This document shows positions 15,753 to 35,776 of a stretch of DNA of 64,000 nt, in pieces. Positions within the stretch are counted from its first letter, which is position 1. Each line of letters starts with the position of its first letter. Below the pieces are notes generated by a model. The model was given only the letters and a program-made list of their open reading frames with translations. It was not told the DNA's origin and did not search any database. The DNA is from a virus. The position numbers and the translations under genes were made by a program. Location of the stretch: positions 31,385-95,384 of IMG/VR virus record IMGVR_UViG_3300025410_000010; one strand, written 5' to 3'.

Positions 15753-16547
15753 TCACCCAAAATCTGGTGCAGCAGCAAATTCACGTTCTATAAATTTTGG
15801 GCTCTGTATTGTTTTATGAGTAATAATACCTTCAACAAACTCTGTTTTAAAGTCTAGAGGAATCTTATAAGATATATTATTCACTATTTTGTTAGTTAGT
15901 ATAGCATGATTAGTCCAAGTCAAATGATTGTATTTTCCATCCATACCAATTATATCATGTATACGTTCAAAGTACCATTTTTCATATTCATTACTATGTA
16001 CATTAGTTAAGGGCATATTGGGCCAGTGAAAGTTATTAAATTTATGTCTATAATCTGTATTCAACCATTCGTATTCGTAGTACATAAGTGGTAGCAGTAT
16101 AGTATGTAAGTTTTTTTCTTTAGTTAAGTGATCAAGATTGTATAAGAAGTCTATACAGTAAGTTTCGTATAATTCCTCATGATTTAGATGTATCAAGTAG
16201 TATTTTACAGCCTTCATAAACTCTGCGCTTGTATGTTGTTCTGATATTGATTTTTTATTATTAAGCATAGTATTATTCGGTTTATCTTTAATAAACCATC
16301 TTCTAAACAAATTACTTATACCCACTATCAAAATGTCATTATCTTGTATATTATCGCGTTCTTGTCTAAACATATGATATGTATAATCTGGGCTCGAACC
16401 TGGGCATCCATGATTAACAACTGATTGATTTAGTTGTTCTCCAATTGCTCTAATCCAAGGTTTAATACCTCGTTTCTTTTGTTCTGATTTATAATTTAAA
16501 TTTTTAAAATCGCCGATAAAGCTATCGCCAAACGCCCATATAGTCAT
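15753..16547 (-). CDS. SGNH/GDSL hydrolase-like protein, copy 1, 264 aa
   Basis: The N-terminal TIWAFGDSFIGDF carries the GDS motif whose serine is the nucleophile in SGNH hydrolases. Block II is NHGCPGSSPDYTYHMF, followed by ERDNIQDNDILIVGIS and RRWF. The C-terminal DGKYNHLTWTNHAIL holds the His region. SGNH enzymes remove acyl groups from lipids or glycans; this subfamily is not one I can name. Last of eight tandem paralogs in transcription order. A late-promoter motif AGTAAATA ends five bases before the ATG, which predicts a leaderless mRNA. Confidence 0.75.
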   Translation of the reverse strand: MTIWAFGDSFIGDFKNLNYKSEQKKRGIKPWIRAIGEQLNQSVVNHGCPGSSPDYTYHMFRQERDNIQDNDILIVGISNLFRRWFIKDKPNNTMLNNKKSISEQHTSAEFMKAVKYYLIHLNHEELYETYCIDFLYNLDHLTKEKNLHTILLPLMYYEYEWLNTDYRHKFNNFHWPNMPLTNVHSNEYEKWYFERIHDIIGMDGKYNHLTWTNHAILTNKIVNNISYKIPLDFKTEFVEGIITHKTIQSPKFIEREFAAAPDFG

Positions 16548-16551
16548 GTTA

Positions 16552-17325
16552 TTATTTACTAGATCTATCTACAAAAGTATCCCAAGCAAAACCAAAGAAT
16601 TCATCGGTATAATCTTGTTCATCTTTAAATCCTATATATTTTTCGACAAATCCTTGTGTTAGATCAATATCAGTACCTTGATTGATATGATTTATAATTT
16701 TATCTGCTAATATAATATGATTTGATTTAATCATATGATTAGGTCTTGGGTCTCCACGTTTATCATAAGCAAGACTTTCGTAGTAGTTTTTAAATTCGTC
16801 AGTCATTTCTTTTAAGTATAGATCGTCGTTCAACAGTCCTTTTGCTATATGTACCTTTGGTATTTTATTTTTAAAGTTTTCTAATATTTCTTCAGTATCT
16901 ATACAAACGCATAGCACCATAGTTTTAAGATTCAATTTTTCACTAAGTTCATTAACTGTATAGAGGAAATTAAAGAAGTTAATTCTATGTGGAACATAGT
17001 TAGTATCCAAGAATGCTCTATATCGTTTAATACTTTGAGTTTCGCTATACTCTCTTCCAAGATCGTCAGCAGCAAGATCAGGGTTACATTCAAAGAACCA
17101 TCTTCTTGCTATCACAGTAGTTGTTATAATCAGTATATCGCCATTTTGTATATTATCACGTTCTCTGTGGAATTCGTTGTAAGTATATTCTAAATTAGTT
17201 CCACAAATTCCAAAAGTTTTCAAATCTGTATTATAATGATCAGCAATGATTTCCATATATTGTTTTTGATTTTCAGATTTATCAATAAGCGTAGCAAAGC
17301 TATCGCCAAACACCCAAACGGTCAT
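16552..17325 (-). CDS. SGNH/GDSL hydrolase-like protein, copy 2, 257 aa
   Basis: I take the ATG at 17325 because GGAG precedes it and all paralogs begin MTxWxFGDS. Motifs: VWVFGDSFATL, GICGTNLEYTYNEF, NGDILIITTTVIARRWFF, and DPRPNHMIKSNHIILADKI near the end. All blocks expected of an SGNH fold are present. A late promoter TATAAATA lies at 17369-17376. An in-frame start at 17409 would add 28 residues not found in the paralogs. Confidence 0.75.
   Translation of the reverse strand: MTVWVFGDSFATLIDKSENQKQYMEIIADHYNTDLKTFGICGTNLEYTYNEFHRERDNIQNGDILIITTTVIARRWFFECNPDLAADDLGREYSETQSIKRYRAFLDTNYVPHRINFFNFLYTVNELSEKLNLKTMVLCVCIDTEEILENFKNKIPKVHIAKGLLNDDLYLKEMTDEFKNYYESLAYDKRGDPRPNHMIKSNHIILADKIINHINQGTDIDLTQGFVEKYIGFKDEQDYTDEFFGFAWDTFVDRSSK
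16553..16560 (-). promoter_or_regulatory. T4-type late promoter
   Basis: Minus strand AGTAAATA, five bases before the ATG at 16547. It overlaps the stop codon of the paralog upstream. Confidence 0.55.
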
Positions 17326-17368
17326 TATAAACTCCAAATAATATTGTGTTTTAATTAAATTTGTGTTA

Positions 17369-17376
17369 TATTTATA
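17369..17376 (-). promoter_or_regulatory. T4-type late promoter
   Basis: Minus strand TATAAATA, the exact T4 late consensus, about 40 bases before the ATG at 17325. Confidence 0.7.
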
Positions 17377-17400
17377 AGCACTAATATGAGGAGCAATTTT

Positions 17401-17802
17401 ATGGATCAATTGCGGAATGTATTCAATACCATGTATAGTTGGGATGGTTCATTAGGTCGATTAGAGTATTTCATGTATGGTTTATTATCGTCGTTAGTCA
17501 GTTGTATTTTATTAGCCTTGATCAATCCAGTATTAGATTCAGAAGGCTCTTTCTTTGTAGTATTAAGTATATCTTTACTGTTATTAGCCTTAAGCAACGC
17601 CGCATATACATCAGTAGTGTTAGTAATCAAGCGTCTACGTTCCATGGGGCTTGACACTGTACATATATGGTGGATAAGTGGATTATGGTTAGTAACGAGT
17701 ATACATAGTTATGGGGAGCCCGAGAGTATTGTGACTTATTGTTTAGTTGCGATTGATTTGTTAGTATCTTTGTGGTTACTCTTTACGCCCGCAAAAAAGT
17801 AA
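17401..17802 (+). CDS. DUF805-family membrane protein, 133 aa
   Basis: The ATG at 17401 is preceded by TGAGGAGCAATTTT. MYSWDGSLGRLEYFMYGLLS matches the start of DUF805 proteins (a GRxxRxxY-type motif before the first membrane helix); IKRLRSMGLDTVHIWW matches their conserved RRLxDxG element. Four hydrophobic segments follow. DUF805 proteins are small inner-membrane proteins of bacteria, with unknown function; a phage copy suggests acquisition from a host. It is inserted on the opposite strand between SGNH paralogs. Confidence 0.75.
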   Translation: MDQLRNVFNTMYSWDGSLGRLEYFMYGLLSSLVSCILLALINPVLDSEGSFFVVLSISLLLLALSNAAYTSVVLVIKRLRSMGLDTVHIWWISGLWLVTSIHSYGEPESIVTYCLVAIDLLVSLWLLFTPAKK

Positions 17803-17898
17803 TTAAATGCATATATATTATGCATAGAAATTTTTGTTTAAAAACCGCGCTACCGCTTCGCGGCTGTGCGGGGGCTTGGGTTCCGAGGAGAGAGACTG

Positions 17899-18078
17899 AT
17901 GTGGTTATACCATGAGGATGATGATTGGGTTGAGTGTGAGTTATTGCATGAATTTTTAGAGCACTATCAAATTAAGTATCATGACAGTGATTTTCATCAT
18001 ATAGAAAAAGTAGTATCTAGGGATGATATAAAGGAAGTAGTGGATTGTGGGAAGTATCAATTAACAACCAATGGATAG
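17899..18078 (+). CDS. Small protein, first of an overlapping paralog pair, 59 aa
   Basis: The ATG at 17899 has GAGGAGAGAGACTG upstream. WLYHEDDDWVECELLHEFLE, then HYQIKYHDSDFHHIEKVVSR, matches the next small frame in the order WxECExL...IxYxDxxxxxxxxVV. Probably a small beta-barrel-like domain. Function unknown. A GC-rich hairpin (CCGCG/CGCGG, near 17843-17863) precedes it. Confidence 0.55.
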   Translation: MWLYHEDDDWVECELLHEFLEHYQIKYHDSDFHHIEKVVSRDDIKEVVDCGKYQLTTNG

Positions 18079-18200
18079 AGTGTGAAGTTCTTTCTGATTT
18101 AGGGGAGGATTTTCGTATTGTTTATTTTGATCCTATTCTTAATCTTGATCGTGAGCGCATAGTCAAGAAAACACAAGTCAGACATCGTCAACCAAATTGA
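18045..18200 (+). CDS. Small protein, second of the paralog pair (TTG start), 51 aa
   Basis: This frame overlaps the end of the gene at 17899. I propose the TTG at 18045, which has AAGGAAG about ten bases upstream. WEVSINNQWIECEVLSDLGE and FRIVYFDPILNLDRERIV align with the preceding protein. The paralogy is the main evidence that this short frame is real. Its last 13 bases overlap the convergent SGNH copy 3. Confidence 0.5.
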   Translation: MWEVSINNQWIECEVLSDLGEDFRIVYFDPILNLDRERIVKKTQVRHRQPN

Positions 18201-18952
18201 TGGAAGTTCCAAAGTTCTTCATTTAAGTGTGCATTATATAATTCATTTATACTGTATTCTTTGTTAGTTAAATTGTGTTCATTCAGCACATATTTGACAA
18301 AAGTATCAAACACAATGGGTTCTTGATTTTTTATATTATTCACGATCTTATCTGCCAGTATGATATGATTTGATTTAATCATATGATTGGGTCTAAGATC
18401 ATTTCTAGCATATTTTAATAATCCGTAACTCTGTATAAATTTTAAATCAAATTCCTTATAGCTTACATCAAAAAGATGTCCGTTGCTGAAGTTTATATAT
18501 GGATAATCTGCTTTACCTTGTTTAATTATATTATCTATAACTTCAAAGCAAGGAATTACAATAATATGACAGTTTAATTTTTTTCTTAAGTATTCTAAAT
18601 TTTCCACAAAGTTAATAAGATATGTAGGTATTATCTCGTTATTATTTGCGAGATATAGTGCGTAATATTTGTAAGCATCATTAGTATTTTGATAGATATC
18701 GACAGCATTAGCAGGTTTATCTTTAAAGAACCAACGACGATTAGTATCAGTTAGTGCCACGATTACAACATCGTTATTTTTAATATATTCTCTATTAACA
18801 TTAAATTGATAATATGTATATTCTATAGCTGATCCACCTTGGCCAAAGCAATTCAAATTTTGATTTAATTTTTGTGCAATCAAGAGGGGCCAAACGTTTC
18901 CCCTATTAGGTTGTATATCTACAAAGCTATCACCAAACACCCAAACAGTCAT
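18188..18952 (-). CDS. SGNH/GDSL hydrolase-like protein, copy 3, 254 aa
   Basis: VWVFGDSFVDI at the N-terminus (nucleophile Ser), GQGGSAIEYTYYQF, NNDVVIVALTDTNRRWFFKD, YLINFVENLEYLRKKLN, and DLRPNHMIKSNHIILADKI at about residue 205. Complete set of conserved blocks. The conserved RRWFFKDKP stretch is not part of classical SGNH enzymes and marks this subfamily. A TTTAAATA motif ends four bases before the ATG. Confidence 0.75.
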   Translation of the reverse strand: MTVWVFGDSFVDIQPNRGNVWPLLIAQKLNQNLNCFGQGGSAIEYTYYQFNVNREYIKNNDVVIVALTDTNRRWFFKDKPANAVDIYQNTNDAYKYYALYLANNNEIIPTYLINFVENLEYLRKKLNCHIIVIPCFEVIDNIIKQGKADYPYINFSNGHLFDVSYKEFDLKFIQSYGLLKYARNDLRPNHMIKSNHIILADKIVNNIKNQEPIVFDTFVKYVLNEHNLTNKEYSINELYNAHLNEELWNFHQFG

Positions 18953-18956
18953 GTGT

Positions 18957-18964
18957 TATTTAAA
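18957..18964 (-). promoter_or_regulatory. T4-type late promoter, divergent
   Basis: Minus strand TTTAAATA, four bases before the ATG at 18952. It touches the + strand motif at 18964-18971. Confidence 0.5.
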
Positions 18965-18971
18965 ATAAATA
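18964..18971 (+). promoter_or_regulatory. T4-type late promoter, divergent
   Basis: AATAAATA, four bases before the ATG at 18976. The two motifs share one base, so only 23 bases separate two divergent start codons. Confidence 0.55.
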
Positions 18972-18975
18972 CATT

Positions 18976-19323
18976 ATGGATAAAGTTATTAATGAATTTG
19001 TAAAGTTTGTTGCCAAGAAGTTACGTATGGATAAGATACCAGAAGTACGTATAGACAACGACCCTAATTTTGCCACAAGTAATAAAACTTTTGGGATATA
19101 TTATCCAGATAAAAACTCAACAACTGTTGAAGTGTATGGTCGTAACATAGTTGATATTTTGAGGACCATTGCTCATGAGTTAACCCATCACCGTCAGAAT
19201 GAAGTAGGGTCAACAAAGAGTCATGTTGACCTAGAAATTGAAGCCACGTATGCTGCGGGTATATTAGTCAAGTTATATTGTGCTAATCATCCAGAGTTAT
19301 ACGGCTCTAGTGAAATAGAATAA
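18976..19323 (+). CDS. Zincin-like metallopeptidase-domain protein, 115 aa
   Basis: DILRTIAHELTHHRQNE at about residues 55-71 contains HExxH-like HELTH, the zinc-binding and catalytic motif of zincins, and a downstream glutamate in DLEIEATYAAGILVK could be the third ligand. The N-terminal part (VINEFVKFVAKKLRMDKIPE) and a TFGIYYPDKNSTTVEVYG strand are like small phage-encoded SprT/zincin proteins. Possible roles are processing of virion or host proteins. No ribosome binding site; a late promoter is four bases from the ATG. Confidence 0.7.
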   Translation: MDKVINEFVKFVAKKLRMDKIPEVRIDNDPNFATSNKTFGIYYPDKNSTTVEVYGRNIVDILRTIAHELTHHRQNEVGSTKSHVDLEIEATYAAGILVKLYCANHPELYGSSEIE

Positions 19324-19326
19324 ATA
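19319..19326 (+). promoter_or_regulatory. T4-type late promoter
   Basis: AATAAATA over the TAA stop of the metallopeptidase gene, four bases before the ATG at 19331. Confidence 0.55.
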
Positions 19327-19330
19327 CTAT

Positions 19331-19699
19331 ATGCGAGCACGAGAATTTATAAATGAAACAACCCGTAAGTTGGATTTTACTGATCCATCGTTAACCCGTG
19401 CTACATATTTTCCGGGTATGGATCAATATTATAGATTCTACCGTATGAGTTTAGACATGGCACAAGTAGGTTCTGATGGTAAAGTAGAAGAACCATCATT
19501 AAGTCAGCCATTACAAGACAGTCCTTGTATGACTGCTTATACTAAAGAAGAAGCCAAAATGATTGATGTTGTTACCAAGTTAAGAGGCATCAACCATAAA
19601 GAATCTAGTGCAGGTGATAGTAAAGAGTTACAAGGCACTAATACCAAGAGTCCAGTAGCAAAGTTTAAGCCTACTAAAAGACCATCACAGCGAGATTAA
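19331..19699 (+). CDS. Putative internal head protein with targeting sequence, 122 aa
   Basis: The N-terminus MRAREFINETTRK resembles the capsid-targeting peptides of T4 internal proteins (for example MKTYQEFIAEA), which the prohead protease gp21 cuts after L/I-x-E; here I-N-E at residues 7-9. The rest is hydrophilic and basic, without a recognised domain. I infer packaging in the head. Not recognised by family; late expression fits. Confidence 0.5.
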   Translation: MRAREFINETTRKLDFTDPSLTRATYFPGMDQYYRFYRMSLDMAQVGSDGKVEEPSLSQPLQDSPCMTAYTKEEAKMIDVVTKLRGINHKESSAGDSKELQGTNTKSPVAKFKPTKRPSQRD

Positions 19700-20456
19700 A
19701 AGTTTCGTTTTTTATCCAGTTTTGATCTTTAATTTTATCAACAGTAATGACATTTTTTATAAAGCCATTTGTTAAATCGATTGATATATTATTATTGATA
19801 TTATCAATTATTTTCTTTGCCAGTATGATATGATTTGATTTTATAAAGTGATTAACTCTAATATCTTTAATACCTGCTGAAAAGTCGTAATTATAAAAGA
19901 AATCTTTAGAGTATTCATCAAAACTAGGAGTAACCAATTTATCAATACTAAACTGTATATTGGGCCACAGAGATTTTTTATTTTTAATCCAATTATCTGT
20001 ATCGTAAAAATTAATAAGAACGATAGTGTGGAGATATTTTTTTTGTGTTAAGTAATCTAAGTGATATAGAAAATTAGTAACATATTCTAAGTAAGCATCT
20101 TCGTTATAAAGATATTTTGTAAAGTATTCTAATGCTTCGTTTTCTTTTAGATTATTAGTGGGGCTAGTTTGTGTACAAGTGTAACCTTTAGTATCTGTAT
20201 CCGGAGTAGCAGTATGTTCGGGATATGATTTAAAAAACCATCTTCTGCTATGTGTAGTAAGTGTTATTATAACGATATCTTTATAATTGATATTTTGTTC
20301 GTATTCGTAAAATTTTGTATAAGTGTATTCAGCACTAGATCCAACCAGTCCAAAGCATTTAATATCTTGATCGAGTTCTCTTGCTATTCTATTCATCCAT
20401 TGGTCTTGAAGACCGGGATATTGATGAGCATAACTATCGCCAAACACCCATATCAT
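19674..20456 (-). CDS. SGNH/GDSL hydrolase-like protein, copy 4, 260 aa
   Basis: MIWVFGDSYAHQY, GLVGSSAEYTYTKF, YKDIVIITLTTHSRRWFF, a region rich in Thr (residues 85-105) not shared by the others, FLYHLDYLTQKKYLHTIVLI, and DIRVNHFIKSNHIILAKKI. All catalytic blocks are kept. The start overlaps the stop region of copy 5 by four bases, so the two are translationally coupled. The 3' end overlaps the convergent gene at 19331. Confidence 0.75.
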   Translation of the reverse strand: MIWVFGDSYAHQYPGLQDQWMNRIARELDQDIKCFGLVGSSAEYTYTKFYEYEQNINYKDIVIITLTTHSRRWFFKSYPEHTATPDTDTKGYTCTQTSPTNNLKENEALEYFTKYLYNEDAYLEYVTNFLYHLDYLTQKKYLHTIVLINFYDTDNWIKNKKSLWPNIQFSIDKLVTPSFDEYSKDFFYNYDFSAGIKDIRVNHFIKSNHIILAKKIIDNINNNISIDLTNGFIKNVITVDKIKDQNWIKNETFNLAVMVF

Positions 20457-21193
20457 TGAAACAGTTCGTTTTTAGAAAAGGTTGGATCATTAACTGCATC
20501 TTCAGACATTAAGTGTTTTTCAAATTCAGTTGTAAGATCGATAGTAGTTTTATTTTTAACATTTTCAACAATTTTTTTAGCAAGTATCAAATGATTAGTT
20601 TTCAATAAGTGATTTAATCTACGATCGTTATCACCGTAAGTTTTTCCTTGATTATCTTTATCAAAAAATTCGTAAGTATATTCGTACATACTAACATCGA
20701 GAAGTATACCGTTAGCAAAGTTGAATAACGGGAATCTATTTCTTTTATCTAAAAGGAAGTCATATACGTCTAAAAAGTTTGCTATTATAATAGTATGAAG
20801 ATTTAATTTTTCAGTTAGTGCATGTACATTAAAAAGAAAATCGATTAGATAAACTTTATGTACATCGGGATTAAAGTCTAAGTGTTCTCTGTATAGTTCT
20901 ATTGCCTTAGTTTCTTTCTTATCACCTCTAGGGCTAGTATTACTATTATGTCCAGGAAAATCTTTAAAGAACCAACGACGATCTAGTCCAGTAAGTACAA
21001 GCACTACAACGTCATTTCCTTCAATCTTTTTTCTAGCAATATTAAACCTATGATAAGTGAATTCCAAACTAGATCCATTAAGTCCCATCGACCAAGGTGT
21101 AGTTCCTAGATCTGTTGCTGCTTTCTGCATCCATTGTTCTGGAGTATTATCTTTCATCTGTGCAAAGCTATCACCGAATACCCATAGTGTCAT
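20453..21193 (-). CDS. SGNH/GDSL hydrolase-like protein, copy 5, 246 aa
   Basis: I chose the ATG at 21193 (GAGGAGAATAAA upstream); a longer frame to 21274 would add residues absent from the paralogs. TLWVFGDSFAQM, GLNGSSLEFTYHRF, GNDVVVLVLTGLDRRWFFKD, FLFNVHALTEKLNLHTIIIA, DRRLNHLLKTNHLILAKKI. Complete conserved blocks. Confidence 0.75.
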   Translation of the reverse strand: MTLWVFGDSFAQMKDNTPEQWMQKAATDLGTTPWSMGLNGSSLEFTYHRFNIARKKIEGNDVVVLVLTGLDRRWFFKDFPGHNSNTSPRGDKKETKAIELYREHLDFNPDVHKVYLIDFLFNVHALTEKLNLHTIIIANFLDVYDFLLDKRNRFPLFNFANGILLDVSMYEYTYEFFDKDNQGKTYGDNDRRLNHLLKTNHLILAKKIVENVKNKTTIDLTTEFEKHLMSEDAVNDPTFSKNELFQ

Positions 21194-21194
21194 T

Positions 21195-21950
21195 TTATTC
21201 TCCTCGAGCTTTTGCCATAAAGCCATCAAATAGTTCATTTTTAATAAAGTCAGGATCTTGTATAACTTTATCATCTAATATATTAATAATAAATCCTTGT
21301 GTAAGATCTATAGGTTTTTTATATAGTATATTATCAATTACTTTATCTTTCATAATGATATGATTTGATTTAATTGCATGATTAACTCTCACATCATTTT
21401 TAGCAAACCATCCTGGGCCATATTTGTTTAGGAATTCTGTTTTCCATTCTTCCTTTGACAAATCCCCAAATTTACCAATTGGAAAGTGTAAATTTTTTAA
21501 TTCTTTTTGATATTTTCTCACTATATTGTCAGCATCGATAAAATTTGGAAGTACTATAATATGTACATTTTTTTTTAAAGCAAAGTAATCTAAGTGATAT
21601 AAAAAGTTTGTAAAATATACTTCAGTTATTTCTTCTAAGAACCACAAGTATCTATAATAGTTTTTAATTGCTTTTGTCTTTTTCTCTGTTCCCGGTTCGC
21701 CTGGATCTAAGATAGGATCTTCAAAAAACCATCTTTTCTCAAGGGTATTAAGAGACATTATGATAATATCATTTTCTTTTATATCTGATTCTTTTTGATT
21801 AAACCTATAGTAAGTATATTCTAAACTTGATCTAGTTTTAACGCAACTAATTACTTTTTGATTTAAAGTAGTAGCAACATTCTGTATCCAACTATCGGGC
21901 AAGTATTTAAAATATCTAGCGGGACAATCACCAAAGATCCACATAGTCAC
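21195..21950 (-). CDS. SGNH-like protein with Cys in place of the nucleophile Ser, copy 6, 251 aa
   Basis: The N-terminal motif reads TMWIFGDCPARYF, so the expected catalytic serine is a cysteine (TGT-type change). Block II is also changed: KTRSSLEYTYYRF lacks the second glycine. The rest (NDIIIMSLNTLEKRWFFED, FLYHLDYFALKKNVHIIVLP, DVRVNHAIKSNHIIM) is conserved. It may be inactive as an esterase, or use Cys. Starts four bases inside the end of copy 7. Confidence 0.75.
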   Translation of the reverse strand: MTMWIFGDCPARYFKYLPDSWIQNVATTLNQKVISCVKTRSSLEYTYYRFNQKESDIKENDIIIMSLNTLEKRWFFEDPILDPGEPGTEKKTKAIKNYYRYLWFLEEITEVYFTNFLYHLDYFALKKNVHIIVLPNFIDADNIVRKYQKELKNLHFPIGKFGDLSKEEWKTEFLNKYGPGWFAKNDVRVNHAIKSNHIIMKDKVIDNILYKKPIDLTQGFIINILDDKVIQDPDFIKNELFDGFMAKARGE

Positions 21951-22690
21951 TTTATTGCTCCTTCGAACAATTCGTCTTTGAATACTATGGGGTCTGTTAG
22001 TAATCTATTATCAAGTACACCCTGTATCATTTGATTGTTTAGATCAATGGGAGTTTTATTTTTAATATTATCAATAATCTTATCTGATAGAATTTTATGA
22101 TTTGATTTAATTAAATGATTAAATCTAATATCACTTTTCATAAACCAATCAACACCACTCATGGCTACTATATCTGATTTAAATTCATAATCGCTAATAA
22201 TTCCTATTCTTCCTCTTGCTATATGTAATGCTGGAATTTCATTATTTCTATATAGATCGGCAAGCAGTGAATCAAAATCAAAAAAGTTTGGTAAGATGAT
22301 AGTATGAAGATTTTTCTTTTCTGTAAAATGATTTAAGTTGTATAAAAAATTGATTAGAAATGTTTTATGCATTTCGTCAAAATGACTTAGATATTTCATA
22401 TAATTTTGAAATGCATTAATTTGATCTTCAGTGAGATCTAAAACTCTAAATGGATAATCTTTAAAGAACCACCTTCTTATTAAAGTAGTGACTGTAATTA
22501 TAACAATATCGTTATCTTGTATATTGTCTCTTTCCTCGTTAAATTTGTAAAACATATATTCAAGAGTTGACAGTGGTTTAGAATAAGATTTTACATCTTG
22601 TTTTAATAATTTAGATGTTCGTTCAACCCAACTATCGGGTAAATGTTCAAAATGTTTTGAAAAGCTATCGCCAAAGGTCCAAATAGTCAT
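21947..22690 (-). CDS. SGNH/GDSL hydrolase-like protein, copy 7, 247 aa
   Basis: TIWTFGDSFSKHF keeps the nucleophile Ser, but block II is YSKPLSTLEYMFYKF, without the paired glycines of copies 1-5. NDIVIITVTTLIRRWFFKD, FLYNLNHFTEKKNLHTIILP and DIRFNHLIKSNHKILSDKI are kept. Coupled to copies 6 and 8 by four-base overlaps. Confidence 0.75.
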   Translation of the reverse strand: MTIWTFGDSFSKHFEHLPDSWVERTSKLLKQDVKSYSKPLSTLEYMFYKFNEERDNIQDNDIVIITVTTLIRRWFFKDYPFRVLDLTEDQINAFQNYMKYLSHFDEMHKTFLINFLYNLNHFTEKKNLHTIILPNFFDFDSLLADLYRNNEIPALHIARGRIGIISDYEFKSDIVAMSGVDWFMKSDIRFNHLIKSNHKILSDKIIDNIKNKTPIDLNNQMIQGVLDNRLLTDPIVFKDELFEGAIK

Positions 22691-23349
22691 TTTGATTGTA
22701 TTCCAACTGCTCTTGTAACAAATCCATTAAACAGTTCATCTTTTTGAAATTCTTCATTATTAAGTAGATCTATATCTATAATTTCTTTTTTAAATCCATC
22801 AGTAAGATCAATAGGAGTGTTATTATTAATAAAGTTCATAATTTTTTTGAATAATATTTTATGATTTGATTTAATCATATGATTAACTCTAATGTCGTGA
22901 AATATTAACCATTCGTAACCTTGTTGTTCGAGATGTTCTGATTTCCATTCATTTCTTGCAACATCACTATATTTTCCATGAGCGAAGTGTATATAGGGAT
23001 ATTGATCTTTAATTGGATCTAAAAAATTATTAACAGTATCGAAAAGGGTAAAGACTATTGTCTTTAAGTTTTTTTCTTTCGAAAGATTATTTAGATCTAT
23101 TATAAAGCGAAGTAATTCTGATTCGTCTAATGTATTTTCAATAACTGACAAGCATATAATAACTACATCATTATCTTTAATATTATTTTTTTGATGATAG
23201 TATGCAGCGTATAATATATTCAGATCTCCAATTACTTTTCCGTAGATAAAAAGATCTTGACCTAATTTTTTTGACAGTTTTTCAATCCAACTGTCTTTAA
23301 GCATTCTAAAATGTCTTGTAGCACTATCGCCAAAGATTTGTATAGTCAT
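22687..23349 (-). CDS. Shortened SGNH-like protein, copy 8, 220 aa
   Basis: First in transcription order. TIQIFGDSATRHF keeps GDS, but the middle is reduced: the glycines of block II and the whole RRWFFKD motif are missing (NDVVIICLSVIENTLDESEL instead). The C-terminal DIRVNHMIKSNHKIL is intact. The gene is about 30 codons shorter than its paralogs. A perfect late promoter TATAAATA ends exactly five bases before the ATG. Confidence 0.75.
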   Translation of the reverse strand: MTIQIFGDSATRHFRMLKDSWIEKLSKKLGQDLFIYGKVIGDLNILYAAYYHQKNNIKDNDVVIICLSVIENTLDESELLRFIIDLNNLSKEKNLKTIVFTLFDTVNNFLDPIKDQYPYIHFAHGKYSDVARNEWKSEHLEQQGYEWLIFHDIRVNHMIKSNHKILFKKIMNFINNNTPIDLTDGFKKEIIDIDLLNNEEFQKDELFNGFVTRAVGIQSK

Positions 23350-23354
23350 GGGAA

Positions 23355-23362
23355 TATTTATA
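23355..23362 (-). promoter_or_regulatory. T4-type late promoter of the SGNH operon
   Basis: Minus strand TATAAATA. Its TAA is the stop codon of the helicase gene, and transcription is expected to begin on the A of the ATG at 23349. Confidence 0.75.
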
Positions 23363-24773
23363 GATCGTCTTCGTTATTATTCAAATTTCCTAATAGTTCT
23401 CTTAATTTGCTACTACCTGTTGTTGCTCTAATTTTAGCCATATCCTTAATTGGATCATTTGCCGGAGTATTTGGTGTTACCGTAGTTCTACTTTTAATAC
23501 TATCAGCAATCTTGCTACGACCACCTGACTGATTCATATCGTCATCGTCATCGTCGCAATCACTAATTCTCAGTGTATCTGGATCAAAAGCTAGATCAAC
23601 TTTCTGTCCAACACCACTAGAGGATCTTGTCTTCATAAATTGAATTTGATAACGTCCACGTTCTCTCATTGCTCTACTTGTAAAGATACCAATAACATTA
23701 TCTGCTGTCTGTATCTTACTAAGTCCGCCACTAATATGACTGTGATCAAATTCAACTTCTTCAACTGCTGCTCTGTTTAACTGACTTGCTGTTACGAGTA
23801 CTGCCTTAATCTCCATGCCAAAGTTTCTAAGTTCTTCTGATACATATTTGTCTTTAATAAACAAGTTTTCAGCACTAACTTTAACGCCCATTGGCATTAA
23901 TAGATCTAAGTAATCGATTAAGATAGCATCGGGCATGAAGCCTTTTCTAATTGAATATTCTTTTACATATGCTCTTAAGTCATTAACATTCTTACCACTG
24001 GGCATATACTTAACTTGTATTGCTCCGCCCTTTTTACCTGCGACTTTAACTTTAATTTCAACGTCATCAATCTGTTTAAAAATTTCTCTAGTAGTAACAC
24101 CGGTAATCATACTATCAATACGCATAGATGTAAGTTCTTCACTAAGTTCTAATGAGACATAAAGAACATTAAGTCCAACTGAAGAAAAGTTAACAGCAAG
24201 ATTCTGTAGGAACAAACTCTTACCAGCACCAGAACCACCTGCAAAGATATTCAGTTCTCCTCGATTAAAGCCGCCATAGAGTTTTTGATCTATAGCCTTC
24301 CATCCAGTAGATACCTGTCCATTATTATCTTTAAGTTTCAGAAGTCTACTTCTCGGATCAAAGAAATAATCAGTGCCCATATCTTTAGCAAGACTAATTT
24401 GTACCGCAGCCTTAATCTTTGCTTCTACAGGACCATAATCGCCTTTTCCAAGCAAGTCTGCGCATTCGAGGATTGCACGTTCTAAGGCTTTATGTCTAGC
24501 AAACTTCTCAAACTCATCAAGCAGCCATTCATAATTTTCCTTAGGAACATCTGTAGCATCTTGTAAGTCAAGTCCAGTATCTGCCTTAATAATTTTTAGT
24601 TCAGGCATTACCTTATATTTGTCTACATATACTTTAAGTTTTTCTGCAACTGGTTGTAGTTTACGATCAAATGACTGTGGATCAAAGATGTTTTGTACTC
24701 TCACAAACGATTCTGCGTCTGCTAAGAACATCTCCAAATAAAGTTTCTGTATGTCGTAAGAGTACTCTGCCAT
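23358..24773 (-). CDS. 41: Replicative DNA helicase, T4 gp41 type, 471 aa
   Basis: RecA-type hexameric helicase of the DnaB/gp41 family. Walker A GGSGAGKSLFLQN (about residue 180) and Walker B AILIDYLDLLMP (about 280) are clear, then TASQLNRAA and HISGGLSKIQTADNVIGIF, as in gp41. The N-terminal 150 residues are helical, as in DnaB. It drives the fork with the primase (gene at 26417). The last 60 residues, with a run of Asp (CDDDDDDMNQ), are an acidic, disordered tail. The promoter at 24779 lies so close that the mRNA is probably leaderless. Confidence 0.9.
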   Translation of the reverse strand: MAEYSYDIQKLYLEMFLADAESFVRVQNIFDPQSFDRKLQPVAEKLKVYVDKYKVMPELKIIKADTGLDLQDATDVPKENYEWLLDEFEKFARHKALERAILECADLLGKGDYGPVEAKIKAAVQISLAKDMGTDYFFDPRSRLLKLKDNNGQVSTGWKAIDQKLYGGFNRGELNIFAGGSGAGKSLFLQNLAVNFSSVGLNVLYVSLELSEELTSMRIDSMITGVTTREIFKQIDDVEIKVKVAGKKGGAIQVKYMPSGKNVNDLRAYVKEYSIRKGFMPDAILIDYLDLLMPMGVKVSAENLFIKDKYVSEELRNFGMEIKAVLVTASQLNRAAVEEVEFDHSHISGGLSKIQTADNVIGIFTSRAMRERGRYQIQFMKTRSSSGVGQKVDLAFDPDTLRISDCDDDDDDMNQSGGRSKIADSIKSRTTVTPNTPANDPIKDMAKIRATTGSSKLRELLGNLNNNEDDL

Positions 24774-24778
24774 ATTGT

Positions 24779-24807
24779 ATTATAGTACCTTGATTGGTTT
24801 AAGTAAA
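24779..24807 (-). promoter_or_regulatory. sigma70-like promoter of the helicase gene
   Basis: Minus strand TTTACT (24807-24802), 17 bases, TATAAT (24784-24779). Five bases separate the -10 from the ATG at 24773; no ribosome binding site fits between. Confidence 0.6.
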
Positions 24808-24810
24808 AGA

Positions 24811-26310
24811 TTATCTTTTCAAAGTGTTTGCATGAGTAAGAACTGGTACGTTATAGTGTTTTCTAAATGCCTCAGCATCAAGACTATCATTAACCATCGG
24901 TTTACCTTTAATGTTTAAACTAGTATTGAGTAGCATTGGACAACCTGTTTCTTCATACCATGCTTCGAGAAGTTTACGAAATCCAGTTCCGTTATCGGGA
25001 ACGGTTTGAACACGACTAGTATGATCAACATGTATAATAGCAGGAAACTCATTTGAGCGTAAGCAAGGTACAGCATATTGCATAAACCTAGATGTGTGTC
25101 CGTTTAATTGGAAGTAATCCTTAGCATGTTCTTCTAGGATAGCAGGAGCAAACGGTCTAAACTTCTGTCGTCTCTTAATTTCATTTACTTTGTCTTTAAT
25201 TGTATTTGATCTTGGATCAGCAAGTAAACTTCTATTACCTAATGCTCTAGGGCCAAACTCTGCTTGTCCATTTGCTACACCAACTGGTAGACCTTTTAAG
25301 AGAACTTCTAATGTTTCTTTAATGGGATAGTGACCTGGAATATCGTAACCCCAATAGCAATGTTCCCAATCAATTTTTTGTTTACGATATGCTAGTACTG
25401 TACCTACACTTGATCCAGCATCACCTGGGTTGGGATAAATCCAAACATTAGTGAATACTTCTAGTGCTAGATCGTTAGCAACACAATTAAGAGCACAACC
25501 TCCTGCGAGTGCTATTTTATTAGCACCTGTTAATACCATTGTCTTAAGTAGCAAGTCTCCAAATTTTCTTTCGTAGATTGCTTGTGTTGCTGCGGCAATA
25601 TTAAATATATCTTGTTCGCTTGTTAATTCAGGTGCCCACCATTTACAACCACGATGTAAATTATGTTTTAATCTAAAGTCATCATTCCAATCGCCTGGTT
25701 CAAAGAAGTCTTCTAGTATACGACCGTATAGTTTATTTGGATCACCAAAAGCAGCCATACCCATAAGGATATATTCTTCTTCGTTAGGTTTAAGACCTAT
25801 ACGTTGAGTCATAGCAGAGTACCAAAGTCCTATACTATGAGGATATACTTGTTTCCAAATTTGTTTAAGACCTTTATCTTTATTTGCTGTCCAGATAGAA
25901 GTAGTAATCCATTCACCTATAGAATCAATGCATAGAACAGCGCAAGAATCAAAAGGACTAGTATAAAATGCTCCAGCGGCATGTGCTTCGTGATGGTTGG
26001 AATATTTGATAGGAGCATGTATACCGTAACTAGCCAAATAATTTTTAATATTTCGATCATTCCAGCACTCTTTTACATTCTGACCGGCATATACTTGTCT
26101 AGCAAATTTCCAATTAGGATTTTCGTACCAACATACTAGATCTGGTTCACCTGCTAGTTGTATAGCATATTTAATCATTTTATAGTCTAAATGACCATCG
26201 TTCTTAATTCCACTGAATCGTTCGCTATGACTAGCAAAGAGCAATCGATCATCATCAAATACTGCAAGTGCAGCATCATGACTGTTAGCAGATATTCCCC
26301 AAGTGATCAT
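24811..26310 (-). CDS. Carbamoyltransferase (NodU/TobZ family), 499 aa
   Basis: Both family domains are present. The N-terminal Kae1-like domain carries HDAALAVFDDDRLLFASHSE (residues 10-30), HHEAHAAGAFYTSPF and the ATP-binding ALAGGCALNCVAN. The C-terminal domain has GQAEFGPRALGNRSLLADPR, RPFAPAILEE and CPMLLNTSLNIKGKPMV. The enzyme makes carbamoyl-AMP from carbamoyl phosphate and ATP and transfers the carbamoyl group to a hydroxyl. In phages, one described use is on 5-hydroxymethylcytosine in DNA; sugars are another. The start overlaps the small gene upstream (ATGA). Confidence 0.9.
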   Translation of the reverse strand: MITWGISANSHDAALAVFDDDRLLFASHSERFSGIKNDGHLDYKMIKYAIQLAGEPDLVCWYENPNWKFARQVYAGQNVKECWNDRNIKNYLASYGIHAPIKYSNHHEAHAAGAFYTSPFDSCAVLCIDSIGEWITTSIWTANKDKGLKQIWKQVYPHSIGLWYSAMTQRIGLKPNEEEYILMGMAAFGDPNKLYGRILEDFFEPGDWNDDFRLKHNLHRGCKWWAPELTSEQDIFNIAAATQAIYERKFGDLLLKTMVLTGANKIALAGGCALNCVANDLALEVFTNVWIYPNPGDAGSSVGTVLAYRKQKIDWEHCYWGYDIPGHYPIKETLEVLLKGLPVGVANGQAEFGPRALGNRSLLADPRSNTIKDKVNEIKRRQKFRPFAPAILEEHAKDYFQLNGHTSRFMQYAVPCLRSNEFPAIIHVDHTSRVQTVPDNGTGFRKLLEAWYEETGCPMLLNTSLNIKGKPMVNDSLDAEAFRKHYNVPVLTHANTLKR

Positions 26311-26420
26311 TTGTAATTAAATGGATCTTTCTTACGTAGTTCTTTAAGACGTTTTCTAAATTTATATTCGTCTCGGATAGCATGCCAGGGCCATGTAATA
26401 ATTTCCCATAATTTTTTCAT
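26307..26420 (-). CDS. Small basic protein between primase and carbamoyltransferase, 37 aa
   Basis: ATGA overlaps join it to the primase before and the carbamoyltransferase after. KKLWEIITWPWHAIRDEYKF then RKRLKELRKKDPFNYK: an amphipathic, Trp-rich N-terminus that could touch membrane or a partner, then a basic helix. I recall small proteins of this sequence type beside phage carbamoyltransferase genes. Role unknown. Confidence 0.7.
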   Translation of the reverse strand: MKKLWEIITWPWHAIRDEYKFRKRLKELRKKDPFNYK

Positions 26421-27382
26421 ATCTTCATCCTTAATTTAATTTTAAGTGGATTACTTTCTATATTCATTATGATACTTATCAATGTAGTTAATCTTCCATA
26501 TCTTTTCACAGCATCAGCAGCATCTTTAATATCTTCTTCCCAATTAGGAAAAGATACGCTCCATCCGTATTCTAAAGCATGTTTAATTAGAGTTTCACCT
26601 GCGGCATCTTGATCTGGAACAACGATAACCTGTTTACCTAAGTTATTAATTTGTAATGCTTGTTCTGGACTACATTCATTAGTCATTACACTAACACCGT
26701 CTAACAATAAAGCATCAATATTACCTTCAAACACTAGTACAAACTTTTTATCCCAAGTTTGTTTATCTAAATTGAATACTATAAAGGGGGGATGACTTTT
26801 AATATATTTAGGACCACCGTCTGTAATCTTACGAGCAACAAATCCCATAAGTTGTCTATTTACAGTAATAGGTATAATCAATTTATCATGCCATCCATTT
26901 CCTTCACTCCAATATAAATCATGATCATAAATGTTTAATCCACGACCATCTAAGTATTGAACAACGGGATGCACTCTCTCGTCATTCATTACTAGTTCTT
27001 CTGTAATCTTATATGAGTTGTTAGGTAGTGGACGTGGAATAAATTCTGGAATAGCAACTATATGTTCTGCCTTTTGTCCACTTTCGGTCTTTAAACATTC
27101 AAACGCAATCTTATTAATTTGATCGGTACTTGCGCCCATCCATCCTAGCAATTCTTTCATTCGTTTGCTAAGTCCACGTCCTGGTCTCCAACTTGCCTTA
27201 TATCCACAGTTAAAGCAATGATATGTAGCACCGCCGTCGTCGGTTCTCTTTATTCCTCCACGTTTCTTTGTATCGCGATTCTCACCTTGATGGACACAAC
27301 AAGGAGCATTGAAACTCACCCAACCGTTAGGCGTCTGTTTCTTGTTTGGAGCAAGAGCAAGTAAGTCGTCATAAAGACTCAT
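26417..27382 (-). CDS. 61: DNA primase, T4 gp61 type, 321 aa
   Basis: The N-terminal zinc-binding domain has CCVHQGE then YHCFNCGYKASW (residues 28-65). The TOPRIM domain follows with the VLVFEGNIDALLLDG and VIVVPDQDAAGETLIKHAL motifs (about residues 215-265), whose Glu and Asp bind catalytic metal. Makes RNA primers with the gp41 helicase encoded 1.6 kb downstream. Length is close to T4 gp61 (342). Stop overlaps the next ATG. Confidence 0.88.
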   Translation of the reverse strand: MSLYDDLLALAPNKKQTPNGWVSFNAPCCVHQGENRDTKKRGGIKRTDDGGATYHCFNCGYKASWRPGRGLSKRMKELLGWMGASTDQINKIAFECLKTESGQKAEHIVAIPEFIPRPLPNNSYKITEELVMNDERVHPVVQYLDGRGLNIYDHDLYWSEGNGWHDKLIIPITVNRQLMGFVARKITDGGPKYIKSHPPFIVFNLDKQTWDKKFVLVFEGNIDALLLDGVSVMTNECSPEQALQINNLGKQVIVVPDQDAAGETLIKHALEYGWSVSFPNWEEDIKDAADAVKRYGRLTTLISIIMNIESNPLKIKLRMKI

Positions 27383-27391
27383 ACAAGCATA

Positions 27392-28204
27392 TTAACTTCG
27401 ATAAAGGATTTTGTCAATTGTTCCAGTATTGCTTAGATCAGGTATCATACGGAATCTAACCCAACTATAGATACCATTGAAGTTATCATAAATGATAGTT
27501 TGATCTGGAGTTACTGTAATAGTTTTTAGCACTGAGAATTTTATAATATCGGTATGTCCATTCTCGAGTGTTACTTGAATCTCAACCTGTCCTGAATATC
27601 CTGTACAATACAATGCCGCAGTATGAAGAGCTGTATTACTATTGAGATCAGGATGACCGTTAAGCGAGGAAGTATAGAGTGAATTGTCTTGGACCACATA
27701 GTTAACTTGCTCCGCAGTAATAAATTCTGAATGTAGAACTTCCTGCGAAGGTAGAACATTTGGAAATGCATTTTCTATTATCTCAACAGGAACGCTTGCG
27801 CCAAACTGTGAGTCTCCGTAAAGTATAGTTCTTTTACCTGTAGCATCTTGTAGGTATGTACTATACATATAATGTCCACTATTAAGTGGTTCTAAATCTC
27901 CTTCCGATAGAGAAAGAGTAACAAATGAATTAGGGGCAGTATTACAATCGATAGCCATGCTGGTAATAAATTTAAGTTCTGCTGTATCGCGATCTAATAT
28001 CTGAAACCAAAGAGTTTGTCCTTGATTTGACAAGTCTAGGAGTTTCTGATCCCCATTCATTAGTTTCATAGTAAATGAGTTATCAATACCCTTATAGAGT
28101 TTCAAAGTTCTTGCGTACACCTTCCTATACCCCATCCATTTTGGATCCAGATCAGTATAAAGTTCCTGGACGTTTTTGTATAAATACGCTGGTTGCTTAT
28201 GCAT
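27392..28204 (-). CDS. Probable virion protein (beta-rich), 270 aa
   Basis: The ATG at 28204 was chosen for the AAGGA upstream and because residues before it are unlikely. LYKGIDNSFTMKLMNGDQKL, TLWFQILDRDTAELKF and LEPLNSGHYMYSTYLQD resemble the N-terminal sandwich of phage baseplate or fibre-holder proteins (BppU-like), then a second beta domain follows. A late promoter CATAAATA at 28225-28232 fits a structural gene. Not T4-named. Confidence 0.6.
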   Translation of the reverse strand: MHKQPAYLYKNVQELYTDLDPKWMGYRKVYARTLKLYKGIDNSFTMKLMNGDQKLLDLSNQGQTLWFQILDRDTAELKFITSMAIDCNTAPNSFVTLSLSEGDLEPLNSGHYMYSTYLQDATGKRTILYGDSQFGASVPVEIIENAFPNVLPSQEVLHSEFITAEQVNYVVQDNSLYTSSLNGHPDLNSNTALHTAALYCTGYSGQVEIQVTLENGHTDIIKFSVLKTITVTPDQTIIYDNFNGIYSWVRFRMIPDLSNTGTIDKILYRS

Positions 28205-28218
28205 GTTAAAAGGATCCT

Positions 28219-28226
28219 TGTAAATA
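28219..28226 (+). promoter_or_regulatory. Late-promoter-like motif, + strand
   Basis: TGTAAATA, three bases before the ATG at 28230, overlapping the minus-strand motif next to it. The palindrome TAAATATTTA makes a two-way promoter possible. Confidence 0.4.
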
Positions 28227-28232
28227 TTTATG
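28225..28232 (-). promoter_or_regulatory. T4-type late promoter
   Basis: Minus strand CATAAATA, about 20 bases before the ATG at 28204. Confidence 0.6.
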
Positions 28233-28604
28233 CTATTAAAAGAACAGATAGAAGACGATTTTCCGTTCATCACAGTAATCACATATGGTAACCACGAGTA
28301 TGTTGGGATAATAATTAACCAAGATAACAACATAACGAGCATATATGATTATAATATATTAAAAGGTGATGATCACAAGAAAGCGTTTTTACAATTAGGT
28401 GATGTATGGTGGTGGGAATCAAACAGAATGATTCCCATTAATATATTCTTACGAAAAGAGATGGAAGTCTTTCGATATGCTATAAAAAACCTAACAACTA
28501 AAGATGTTCAGATATTAATAGGTCCAGTAGTAAATTTACACAATATTATGTTAAAAAGAGTAAAACGTCGTTCTGTACAATTAGTTAGGACACCAAAGCG
28601 TTAG
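28230..28604 (+). CDS. Conserved T4-like phage protein, 124 aa
   Basis: EDDFPFITVITYGNHEYVGI, IINQDNNITSIYDYNI, GDVWWWESNRMIPINIFLRK and KDVQILIGPVVNLH form a compact alpha-beta protein that I recall as conserved, without function, in T4-like cyanophages. No ribosome binding site is close to the ATG. It is the only + strand gene of this stretch and overlaps the end of the DnaE-like gene by 20 bases. Confidence 0.7.
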   Translation: MLLKEQIEDDFPFITVITYGNHEYVGIIINQDNNITSIYDYNILKGDDHKKAFLQLGDVWWWESNRMIPINIFLRKEMEVFRYAIKNLTTKDVQILIGPVVNLHNIMLKRVKRRSVQLVRTPKR

Positions 28605-29157
28605 ATTGTTCTATTAATAAATTCATTTGTACTACAATGGCATGAGCATATGCTATAGCATGTGATTTTTTAAAGAAATATCCTTCTTCAGATTTAGTCC
28701 AAACTTCGTTATTAATTGTATTCCAATCACTATCTACAAGATATCGTTTAGCAGGGCGTATAATTGCTAATACAGCAGCAAGTTGTTCAATTGATTTAGG
28801 TTTTAATTTATTAACAATATCAAAGTGACCATTAATATGAAATAGTTGATCTACAATTTCTTTGTATTCGAGAAAGTCCCAATTTGGTTCTTGTGTTAGT
28901 AGTTTTATAAGATGTTCTTCATCCTTTACACCGTCATACATACTAACATTAAGAAAGTCTATTTTAAAATATCCTCTTTCTTCTGCTTGTTCGTAGTCAA
29001 TAGTTGAAATATTTGTAAATGGATTGTGAGGAATTTCTGTAAAGTAAACACCTGTATTATGTTTAACTTCTTCTCCTTTTTGATGCCTCATTGCTAAACG
29101 ATGAGGTAAAACATCTAGTGCTTTGTTTCTATCAAAGAAGTCAATATCAATATCCAT
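28585..29157 (-). CDS. DnaE-like palm/fingers fragment (mini Pol III alpha core), 190 aa
   Basis: The order of motifs follows the catalytic core of bacterial DNA polymerase III alpha. MDIDIDFFDRNKALDVLPH resembles DnaE PDFDVDF plus its helix (two catalytic Asp). VKHNTGVYFTEIP resembles the RHAGGVVIAP loop. GYFKIDFLNVSMYDGV resembles GLVKFDFLGLRTL (third catalytic Asp). FFKKSHAIAYAHAIV resembles FNKSHSAAYA of the fingers. The PHP, thumb and tau-binding parts are missing. Sequence conservation in T4-like aquatic phages is my recollection. Whether it polymerises is unknown. Confidence 0.7.
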   Translation of the reverse strand: MDIDIDFFDRNKALDVLPHRLAMRHQKGEEVKHNTGVYFTEIPHNPFTNISTIDYEQAEERGYFKIDFLNVSMYDGVKDEEHLIKLLTQEPNWDFLEYKEIVDQLFHINGHFDIVNKLKPKSIEQLAAVLAIIRPAKRYLVDSDWNTINNEVWTKSEEGYFFKKSHAIAYAHAIVVQMNLLIEQSNALVS

Positions 29158-29369
29158 TAGTGTTTTGTATCGCTATTGAATAATAGTAATGGTAAAGAGA
29201 AGTCGATGTATTCAACAAAATTATCCATTTGTTTTTGATTATCAAATCCTGTAAATTTTAAGTAGACAGTGTTATCTTTTTCATCGGAAAAGATTTGATA
29301 TTTAAGGTCAACGGCTTGATAATTTCCATTGTCTTCATTGTCGGGGATATCTTCAAATTCTTCACTCAT
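29157..29369 (-). CDS. Small acidic protein, 70 aa
   Basis: Coupled to both neighbours by overlap (starts inside the end of the gene at 29366, stops at the DnaE-like start). Acidic N-terminus (SEEFEDIPDNEDNGNYQAVD), then a beta strand (YQIFSDEKDNTVYLKFTGFD) and a helix. No family recognised; probably a partner of the proteins around it. Confidence 0.6.
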   Translation of the reverse strand: MSEEFEDIPDNEDNGNYQAVDLKYQIFSDEKDNTVYLKFTGFDNQKQMDNFVEYIDFSLPLLLFNSDTKH

Positions 29370-30106
29370 ATCTTTGCCTCCCTTATTAATTTTTTAGCAA
29401 ATTCTGTATCTGCTTTATGTTTTTTAAAATGATCGGACCAGAATTCAATGTCTACCATGGGAGCAATGATTTGTAATTGTTCGTCGTTCATATTCTGTAA
29501 TGATCTAATACCATTATCACTATTAAGCATAATCCACGGCGATATTTTACCATCTCTTACATCGTACACAATCTTATTTACATTAGCATAACTAAAATAG
29601 TGATTCCAACCTGCGCTATGTTTTTCTCCCCATTGTACCATAGTTTGAATAGATCTTTCTGCCGCAGTCTCAACATGTTCTGTTCTAATAAGATCAATAA
29701 CATATTTGTCATATATTTCTTCTCTGCACCATTTGTCTAGTGCAATGCCACTTTTAATAATCCAATCAATATATTTGTCTGGGTATAATGGATTAACATT
29801 ACTCATAAAGGATCCAAACTTTACAAATGCATTGTAATAGGGACTCTTTATAAATTCTTCATATTTCTTTTCTTTCTTAGCATTTTGTGTGATTTTATAA
29901 AATTTATTATAAACATAAAATCCATTCTGTACTCTACGTTCATCACGTTGCATATAACGACGCTTTGGTTCACACATATGAACCATTAAGGTCTTTTCTT
30001 TAACAAAACTCTTGCCGCAATGCTCACAAACGTAGTTAGAGATTTTTAATCTCCTTTTCGGAATATCCCATCTGTCTCGCAAGGTCTTTAATGCCAGCGG
30101 TTCCAT
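29366..30106 (-). CDS. Zinc-finger protein conserved in T4-like phages, 246 aa
   Basis: A C2H2-like or C2HC finger lies at about residues 26-46 (YVCEHCGKSFVKEKTLMVHM C), followed by a basic stretch. The rest is helical: SPYYNAFVKFGSFMSNVNPL, YPDKYIDWIIKSGIALDKWC. I recall this protein, including its RDRWDIPKRRL start, from cyanophage genomes, so the 71-base overlap with the gene before is probably real. Role not known; the location among replication genes suggests DNA work. Confidence 0.65.
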   Translation of the reverse strand: MEPLALKTLRDRWDIPKRRLKISNYVCEHCGKSFVKEKTLMVHMCEPKRRYMQRDERRVQNGFYVYNKFYKITQNAKKEKKYEEFIKSPYYNAFVKFGSFMSNVNPLYPDKYIDWIIKSGIALDKWCREEIYDKYVIDLIRTEHVETAAERSIQTMVQWGEKHSAGWNHYFSYANVNKIVYDVRDGKISPWIMLNSDNGIRSLQNMNDEQLQIIAPMVDIEFWSDHFKKHKADTEFAKKLIREAKI

Positions 30107-30512
30107 TTATTTCTGCCAATACTTCTAGTTCGTCGTCTTTTAGATGAGGATATGCTTCTGCTAATATTTTAACACGTTTATTGGAAGATTTCTTTCCTAG
30201 AGGTATCCATTCATGAAAGAATGTTTTCTCTTTATCCCAACTACACATACAAAGTAAAATCCAAAGTAGTTTAGGATGTTTCTGTAATTCAAACCAATGT
30301 TTATTATAAAGTTCATTTACCATAGTAACAAAGTATTCTTGTTGCTCTCTATTATTAGTTTTAACTGAACTTATGTACCTGTTTAAGTTCCAAAGATCAC
30401 CTTTAATTTCTTTTCGACCTTCGTCCGTAGCAGCATCCCACAGGTCTTTAATACCCATGTCTACACTAGGAATCATTTCCTTAAAGAGGTCTATATGTTT
30501 ATTCTGTCCCAT
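30036..30512 (-). CDS. Conserved T4-like phage protein, 158 aa
   Basis: Helical basic protein: KGDLWNLNRYISSVKTNNRE, YFVTMVNELYNKHWFELQKH, PKLLWILLCMCSWDKEKTFF, HEWIPLGKKSSNKRVKILAE. The C-terminus (IKDLARQMGYSEKEIKNL) looks like a helix-turn-helix or UBA-like end. I considered the clamp loader small subunit gp62 but the match is too weak. Probably part of the replication or repair set. Confidence 0.6.
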   Translation of the reverse strand: MGQNKHIDLFKEMIPSVDMGIKDLWDAATDEGRKEIKGDLWNLNRYISSVKTNNREQQEYFVTMVNELYNKHWFELQKHPKLLWILLCMCSWDKEKTFFHEWIPLGKKSSNKRVKILAEAYPHLKDDELEVLAEINGTAGIKDLARQMGYSEKEIKNL

Positions 30513-31772: not shown

Positions 31773-31778
31773 AATCTC

Positions 31779-34907: not shown

Positions 34908-34914
34908 TTTATAA

Positions 34915-35760: not shown

Positions 35761-35776
35761 GGATATATATAGTATC

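Follow-up and report, generated by a model that had tools for sequence, protein, structure and literature searches.

Proteins of the SGNH/GDSL superfamily, such as TesA, rhamnogalacturonan acetylesterase and OatA, have an N-terminal GDS serine, and a block V histidine ahead of the last long helix. In phages, SGNH esterases which act on surface glycans are known as domains of the large tailspikes of Acinetobacter phages (PMC11126041). In bacteria, an SGNH/esterase-type protein may be encoded with a carbamoyltransferase in a biosynthetic cluster, in one copy: examples are CgnD and CgnI in the crocagin cluster, where CgnD is a slow leader-peptide hydrolase (PMC10070186), and Pnp1B and Pnp1D in the Pantoea PNP-1 cluster (PMC4010436). 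Here we describe an array of eight homologous genes, all on the minus strand, at positions 15753–23349 of a stretch of viral DNA of 64,000 nucleotides (nt). This stretch, the window, covers the 64 kb at the right-hand end of the 95,384-base record IMGVR_UViG_3300025410_000010. The source is a T4-like virus of aquatic bacteria, with genes for a DnaB-like helicase, primase, UvsX, a gp32-type protein, terminase, tail sheath and tail tube. According to structural models, the array proteins are soluble SGNH-fold (GDSL-like) members of an uncharacterised phage family. Our preferred reading, to which we assign a probability of about 0.4, is that they are cytoplasmic O-acyl or O-carbamoyl esterases or transferases of sugars or glycans, diversified for different substrates; we infer both the reaction and the substrate.

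The array shares features with each of these systems. The predicted fold, the GDS serine, and the block V histidine with the last long helix are in register with the superfamily. On the other hand, identity is about 10–16%, no Pfam SGNH profile matches significantly, and an extra C-terminal segment is present. T-x3-R-x-W takes the place of the block III Asn, with Asp at –5 and Arg at –3. Unlike the tailspike domains, the array proteins stand alone, with about 250 amino acids, and are encoded beside replication genes. The T4-like cyanophages P-SSM2 and S-CAM1, also aquatic, have a carbamoyltransferase of the same superfamily as the one near the array, within a sugar kinase, nucleotidyltransferase, isomerase and epimerase module. 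We have found no SGNH family member in those loci, which lie near tail fibres and not near gp41.

The first-pass annotation had proposed eight tandem paralogs, and this is what we find: eight open reading frames whose products are 29–42% identical in full-length pairwise alignments. They are copy 1 (15753–16547, 264 amino acids), the last of the array, copy 2 (16552–17325, 257), copy 3 (18188–18952, 254), copy 4 (19674–20456, 260), copy 5 (20453–21193, 246), copy 6 (21195–21950, 251, with a GTG start), copy 7 (21947–22690, 247) and copy 8 (22687–23349, 220), the first after gp41. For copies 2 and 5, the longest mechanical reading frames extend too far, to 17409 and 21274; the conserved start positions are 17325 and 21193. 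Some adjacent genes overlap by 4 nt, for example copies 7 and 8, which is typical of translational coupling. No hydrophobic segment, obvious signal peptide or membrane segment was found in the proteins. The whole record contains exactly eight copies, with no ninth outside the window. Three other IMG/VR contigs carry parts of this region: 3300006120_000029 (window 8718–28949, 100% identical), 3300006127_001125 (19032–31190, 100%) and 3300025382_000474 (21871–26543, 99.98% DNA identity). The array is therefore not an assembly artefact, and since a profile of the family also detects some 120 loci of other viruses, it is far beyond chance.

The SGNH fold, and the membership of all copies in one family, are well supported. 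The AlphaFold2 model of copy 3 has a predicted local distance difference test score (pLDDT) of 87.7 and a predicted template modelling score (pTM) of 0.88 with a 21-row alignment, and 91.8 and 0.90 with a 56-row alignment. For both models, Foldseek matches in the PDB with a probability of 0.9 or more are almost exclusively SGNH/GDSL proteins. They include rhamnogalacturonan acetylesterase, acetyl xylan esterase, TesA, and the acyltransferases OatA and SsfX3 (probability 0.9–1.0, best E 1.5e-4, TM-score at most 0.48 when scaled by the query and 0.62 by the target). These TM-scores are moderate, so the family is a distant SGNH member. Matches in BFVD are mostly unnamed proteins of uncultured phages, several of them named SGNH_hydrolase. 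The first-pass annotation had read the genes as SGNH/GDSL-like, an idea open to contradiction by a model of another fold; the models match SGNH enzymes and the block V histidine aligns, while blocks II and III and the position of the Asp are not canonical.

At the sequence level the SGNH signal is weak but in register. Alignment to E. coli TesA with hhalign places the block I GDS and block II in register, and a PDB profile search places the same blocks on rhamnogalacturonan acetylesterase, a match which is not significant alone. None of the eight proteins has a significant match in Pfam or PHROG. No window copy matches a curated SGNH profile, and Lipase_GDSL reaches only E 0.018 at best, in two of 56 family members. 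PF19547 (DUF6071), a Pfam family of unknown function, matches one marine member above the curated cut-off (E 3.8e-8), but not the window copies. A PDB profile match to Mediator subunit 31 (E 6e-4) was dropped as chance, as it disappeared with a deeper profile.

Three motifs had been proposed for these proteins. D-x3-N-H-x4-N-H is invariant in all eight copies, although it lies about 60 residues before the C-terminus and not at the end, as first described. RWF is found in seven of the eight and is missing, as expected, from copy 8, which lacks this block and some 35 amino acids. FGDS, within the first ten residues, had been claimed for all copies and holds for seven; copy 6 has FGDC. We have counted conservation in an alignment of 56 diverse family members. 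G7, E167 and H196 are invariant, and the almost invariant positions are D61 and R187 (55 members each), S9, R72 and D185 (54 each), H190, W74 and N195. In an iterated profile, the family motif D-x-R-x-N-H-x4-N-H aligns with HPSALGH, the block V of an SGNH-like phage protein of more classical type (L095), with H190 (55 of 56) on its histidine. The first N-H histidine thus appears to occupy the position of the catalytic His of block V; the second would lie where classical proteins have G-H or similar. Since it is conserved across such diverse members, the doubled N-H is a family signature.

The nucleophile serine of block I is kept in 54 members, with Cys in copy 6. The block II oxyanion Gly is present in 48 members. 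It is replaced by Arg, Leu and Ile in copies 6, 7 and 8, respectively, and is also lost in copies c1, c2 and c4 of a second array, found in contig 3300032227_000170 (L010). Array copies account for six of the eight losses of this Gly, as well as for the change of Ser to Cys. Copies 6–8 seem to have lost some canonical catalytic features. Such losses would be expected if the expansion were largely non-adaptive, the result of tandem duplication and relaxed constraint, with most copies decaying or being non-enzymatic binding proteins; in addition, copy c3 of L010 is truncated, has FGDI and lacks both the Ser and the His. Nevertheless, all eight window copies are intact and keep E167, D185, H190, N195 and H196, and gene order is largely kept with L010 despite strong divergence. 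We consider this an improbable explanation of the whole array, and the drift of degenerate copies a possible complementary process. As for the roles first proposed, esterases or structural proteins, to which transferases may be added, a purely structural one is disfavoured because Ser and His are retained.

The L010 array is cut by the contig end and has at least seven copies, so the expansion, of which the first-pass annotation knew no other phage example, is not unique. Among lytic phages, we have met no further case of one enzyme gene present in so many diverged copies. The two arrays are largely colinear and contain the same three opposite-strand genes: a DUF805-like gene (17386–17802, 61% identity) and two small genes (18976–19323, 72%, and 19331–19699, 39%), all on the plus strand of the window. 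In a tree the two arrays group together (support 90/87), with clear pairs: copy 5 with L010 c3 (100/99) and copy 7 with L010 c1/c2 (99/89). Most duplications therefore seem older than the split of the two viruses. Between them, gp41 is 94% identical and the carbamoyltransferase 82%, while the best full-length SGNH pair is 47% identical; the truncated c3 is 54% identical to its window partner. Most phages with one or two copies and a similar gp41 identity (93–98%) have SGNH proteins which are 72–93% identical, and the L052, L059 and L072 group also has a divergent or replaced SGNH gene at the gp41 slot. With SGNH identity so far below gp41 identity, this slot is hypervariable, most of all in the arrays. 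Base composition changes at the array boundary, at 15.5 kb of the window: the GC fraction is about 0.44 over the plus-strand genes at 2–14 kb and 0.30 over the array. To the left of the window, the same genome has three very distant SGNH-like genes (L092: 1999–2742, 5422–6195 and 6188–6976, minus strand), whose products are of a GCS type, contain an RRERW segment and have a classical D-x-x-H close to the C-terminus. Together with the array, the genome has about 11 SGNH-like genes.

The profile search proposed in the first-pass annotation, covering viral and bacterial genomes, found the IMG/VR loci mentioned above. Two scans of a bacterial genome collection found no relatives at the sensitivity used, and three family members gave no tblastn match in INPHARED. 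The family may have a cellular carrier, because one record classed as viral, IMGVR_UViG_3300009103_001286, has bacterial-type genes such as uroporphyrinogen decarboxylase (hemE), with ferrochelatase-like and NadA genes, beside its SGNH member and 2-oxoglutarate-Fe(II) oxygenases. This record is perhaps a bacterial contig.

About 45 T4-like contigs have a fixed gene order: primase, NodU-like carbamoyltransferase, gp41 helicase and one or two SGNH copies. Expanded arrays are found only in the window virus and L010. In the window, the gp41-type DnaB-like replicative helicase (23358–24773, minus strand) invariably adjoins the SGNH slot in the T4-like relatives, and the NodU/Nol-like carbamoyltransferase (24811–26310, minus strand) is the conserved partner gene. 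Such a carbamoyltransferase is present in 28 of 38 records, and about ten contigs with another background have a longer carbamoyltransferase within a few genes of SGNH. Outside the gp41 locus, the two genes are within about 3 kb of each other in eight records, and carbamoyltransferases are 7 of 150 SGNH neighbours and 0 of 149 control genes. In Pelagibacter phage Mosig, a distant SGNH-like gene lies three genes before a carbamoyltransferase, with radical S-adenosylmethionine (SAM) and aminotransferase genes. In another record, IMGVR_UViG_3300047480_000598 (L029: 5279–8860), several tandem genes with similar N-termini (MSTEQIRSLLN...) are found shortly before the only SGNH gene; they may represent a further tandem family at this slot.

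This partnership may be read in other ways. The SGNH proteins and the carbamoyltransferase might be a biosynthetic pair which, with radical SAM enzymes, tailors a small molecule or peptide, a phage-encoded metabolite. The two types of gene co-occur in the PNP-1 cluster (PMC4010436), and CgnD, whose cluster has the carbamoyltransferase CgnI (PMC10070186), is among the Foldseek matches, although with low TM-scores (about 0.26–0.33). Radical SAM genes are enriched near SGNH outside the gp41 locus (12 of 150 neighbours, 3 of 149 controls), and the source genome has four. However, no precursor peptide or nonribosomal peptide synthetase-like gene was identified in the window, and eight parallel copies are unexpected for one pathway, so we find this explanation quite unlikely. 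The four radical SAM genes are consecutive and lie to the left of the window (L091: 10172–15696, plus strand), one of them with a clear SPASM domain.

Alternatively, the carbamoyltransferase might act on 5-hydroxymethylcytosine (5hmC) in DNA, and the SGNH proteins would attach groups to the modified base, take them off or vary them. One phage enzyme of NodU type is a proven 5hmC carbamoyltransferase (PMC8670742), and the module sits among replication genes such as gp41 and primase. In that study, however, modified contigs were the only ones in which genes for a carbamoyltransferase and a thymidylate synthase occurred together. Here, the 95 kb record has no gene of thymidylate synthase type, and neither have 36 of 38 related records, some of them 133–266 kb long, although these records may be fragments. 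The main text of that paper, on MetaGPA, names no GDSL, SGNH or esterase family. We regard DNA modification as very unlikely.

A different kind of evidence comes from putative promoters. On the minus strand of the window, ATAAATA occurs at ten sites, eight of them within 50 nt upstream of gene starts, where 0.46 are expected (binomial P about 8e-10); on the opposite strand the figure is one of six. Structural genes have such sites, as do copy 8 and copy 2; the gp41, primase, UvsX and gp32-type genes do not. The longer motif TATAAATA is found just upstream of copy 8 (23355–23362, minus strand), overlapping the gp41 stop codon, and 44 nt upstream of copy 2 (17369–17376, minus strand). Its raw count is lower than expected by chance: its significance lies in placement only. 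Late transcription of the array is supported by these motifs, and is argued for the window phage only, because no family-wide late-promoter motif was found upstream of SGNH genes (8 of 73, against a background of 16%). The earlier view that the genes are read mainly from a late promoter agrees with this placement, which includes the first gene of the array, but the operon is not purely late, since the array directly follows the gp41, carbamoyltransferase and primase genes. Over the minus strand from 15.5 to 62.7 kb, ATAAATA/CTAAATA motifs lie directly upstream of structural genes and not of replication genes, often 5–8 nt before the start codon, so the transcripts would be near-leaderless.

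The resemblance of these motifs to those of tail and head genes suggests yet another explanation: virion decorations or tail-associated esterases, acting on or binding host surface glycans from outside and diversified for host range. SGNH domains are known in phage tailspikes (PMC11126041), the BFVD matches include tail fibre proteins, and fast diversification fits host recognition. Nevertheless, the proteins are short (220–264 amino acids) and have no added fibre-like module, the array adjoins replication genes and not tail genes, and its partner is a carbamoyltransferase of cytoplasmic type. A place in the virion is unlikely, in our opinion, but it comes before the metabolite and DNA modification in order of likelihood. 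Two features of the tail region should also be noted: the sheath protein (51539–54976, 1145 amino acids) is longer than the matched PHROG profile (915 positions), and a small gene nearby (60747–61265) has collagen-like GPTGPTG repeats.

If the copies are indeed cytoplasmic sugar or glycan esterases or transferases, a single gene in the common ancestor of the window virus and L010 would have been duplicated repeatedly, and the copies would then have diverged in substrate specificity. They would act late in infection, in the host cytoplasm, and their substrates would be sugars or glycan precursors that the phage makes or alters. Their partners would be the carbamoyltransferase and the glycosyltransferases of an accessory island between replication genes (30742–39811), which contains GT25, GT8 and further glycosyltransferase-like genes, a cupin gene and a plus-strand fatty acid desaturase gene. 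The likely end effect would be an altered host or virion glycan, for example one excluding competing phages. Glycosyltransferases of pelagimyophages have been interpreted as a means of modifying the host O-chain (PMC7029224).

Several observations weigh against this reading. The block III Asn (GxND) is absent, and nearly all members have T-x3-R-x-W after strand 3. In SGNH enzymes the catalytic Asp lies three residues before the His; here this position is Arg in 55 of 56 members, and the conserved Asp is at –5. Some copies look catalytically degenerate. Outside the gp41 locus, the carbamoyltransferase linkage is only of moderate significance (combined p 0.014), and the related contigs are not independent. 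Sugar-nucleotide genes are not enriched near SGNH when control genes from the same contigs are compared: they are about as common there, so the glycan context is background-rich.

In summary, the diverging array and its linkage to a carbamoyltransferase suggest a set of fast-evolving tools with which acyl groups on sugars are edited. A bolder proposal, which we consider doubtful, is that a phage-specific SGNH-fold enzyme family with a rewired active site (R-x-W for the block III Asn, Asp at –5) and the NodU-like carbamoyltransferase together form a new sugar-decoration module. In one lineage this family would have become a rapidly diversifying tandem array, an enzyme equivalent of the hypervariable genes for host range. 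Should the copies act on different substrates, the array would offer a natural collection of closely related enzymes for glycan or acyl editing, and would clearly exemplify how enzymes diversify in phage–host or phage–phage conflict. The conserved SGNH–carbamoyltransferase pair is also a testable lead on the role of the NodU-like carbamoyltransferases which are widespread in aquatic T4-like phages.

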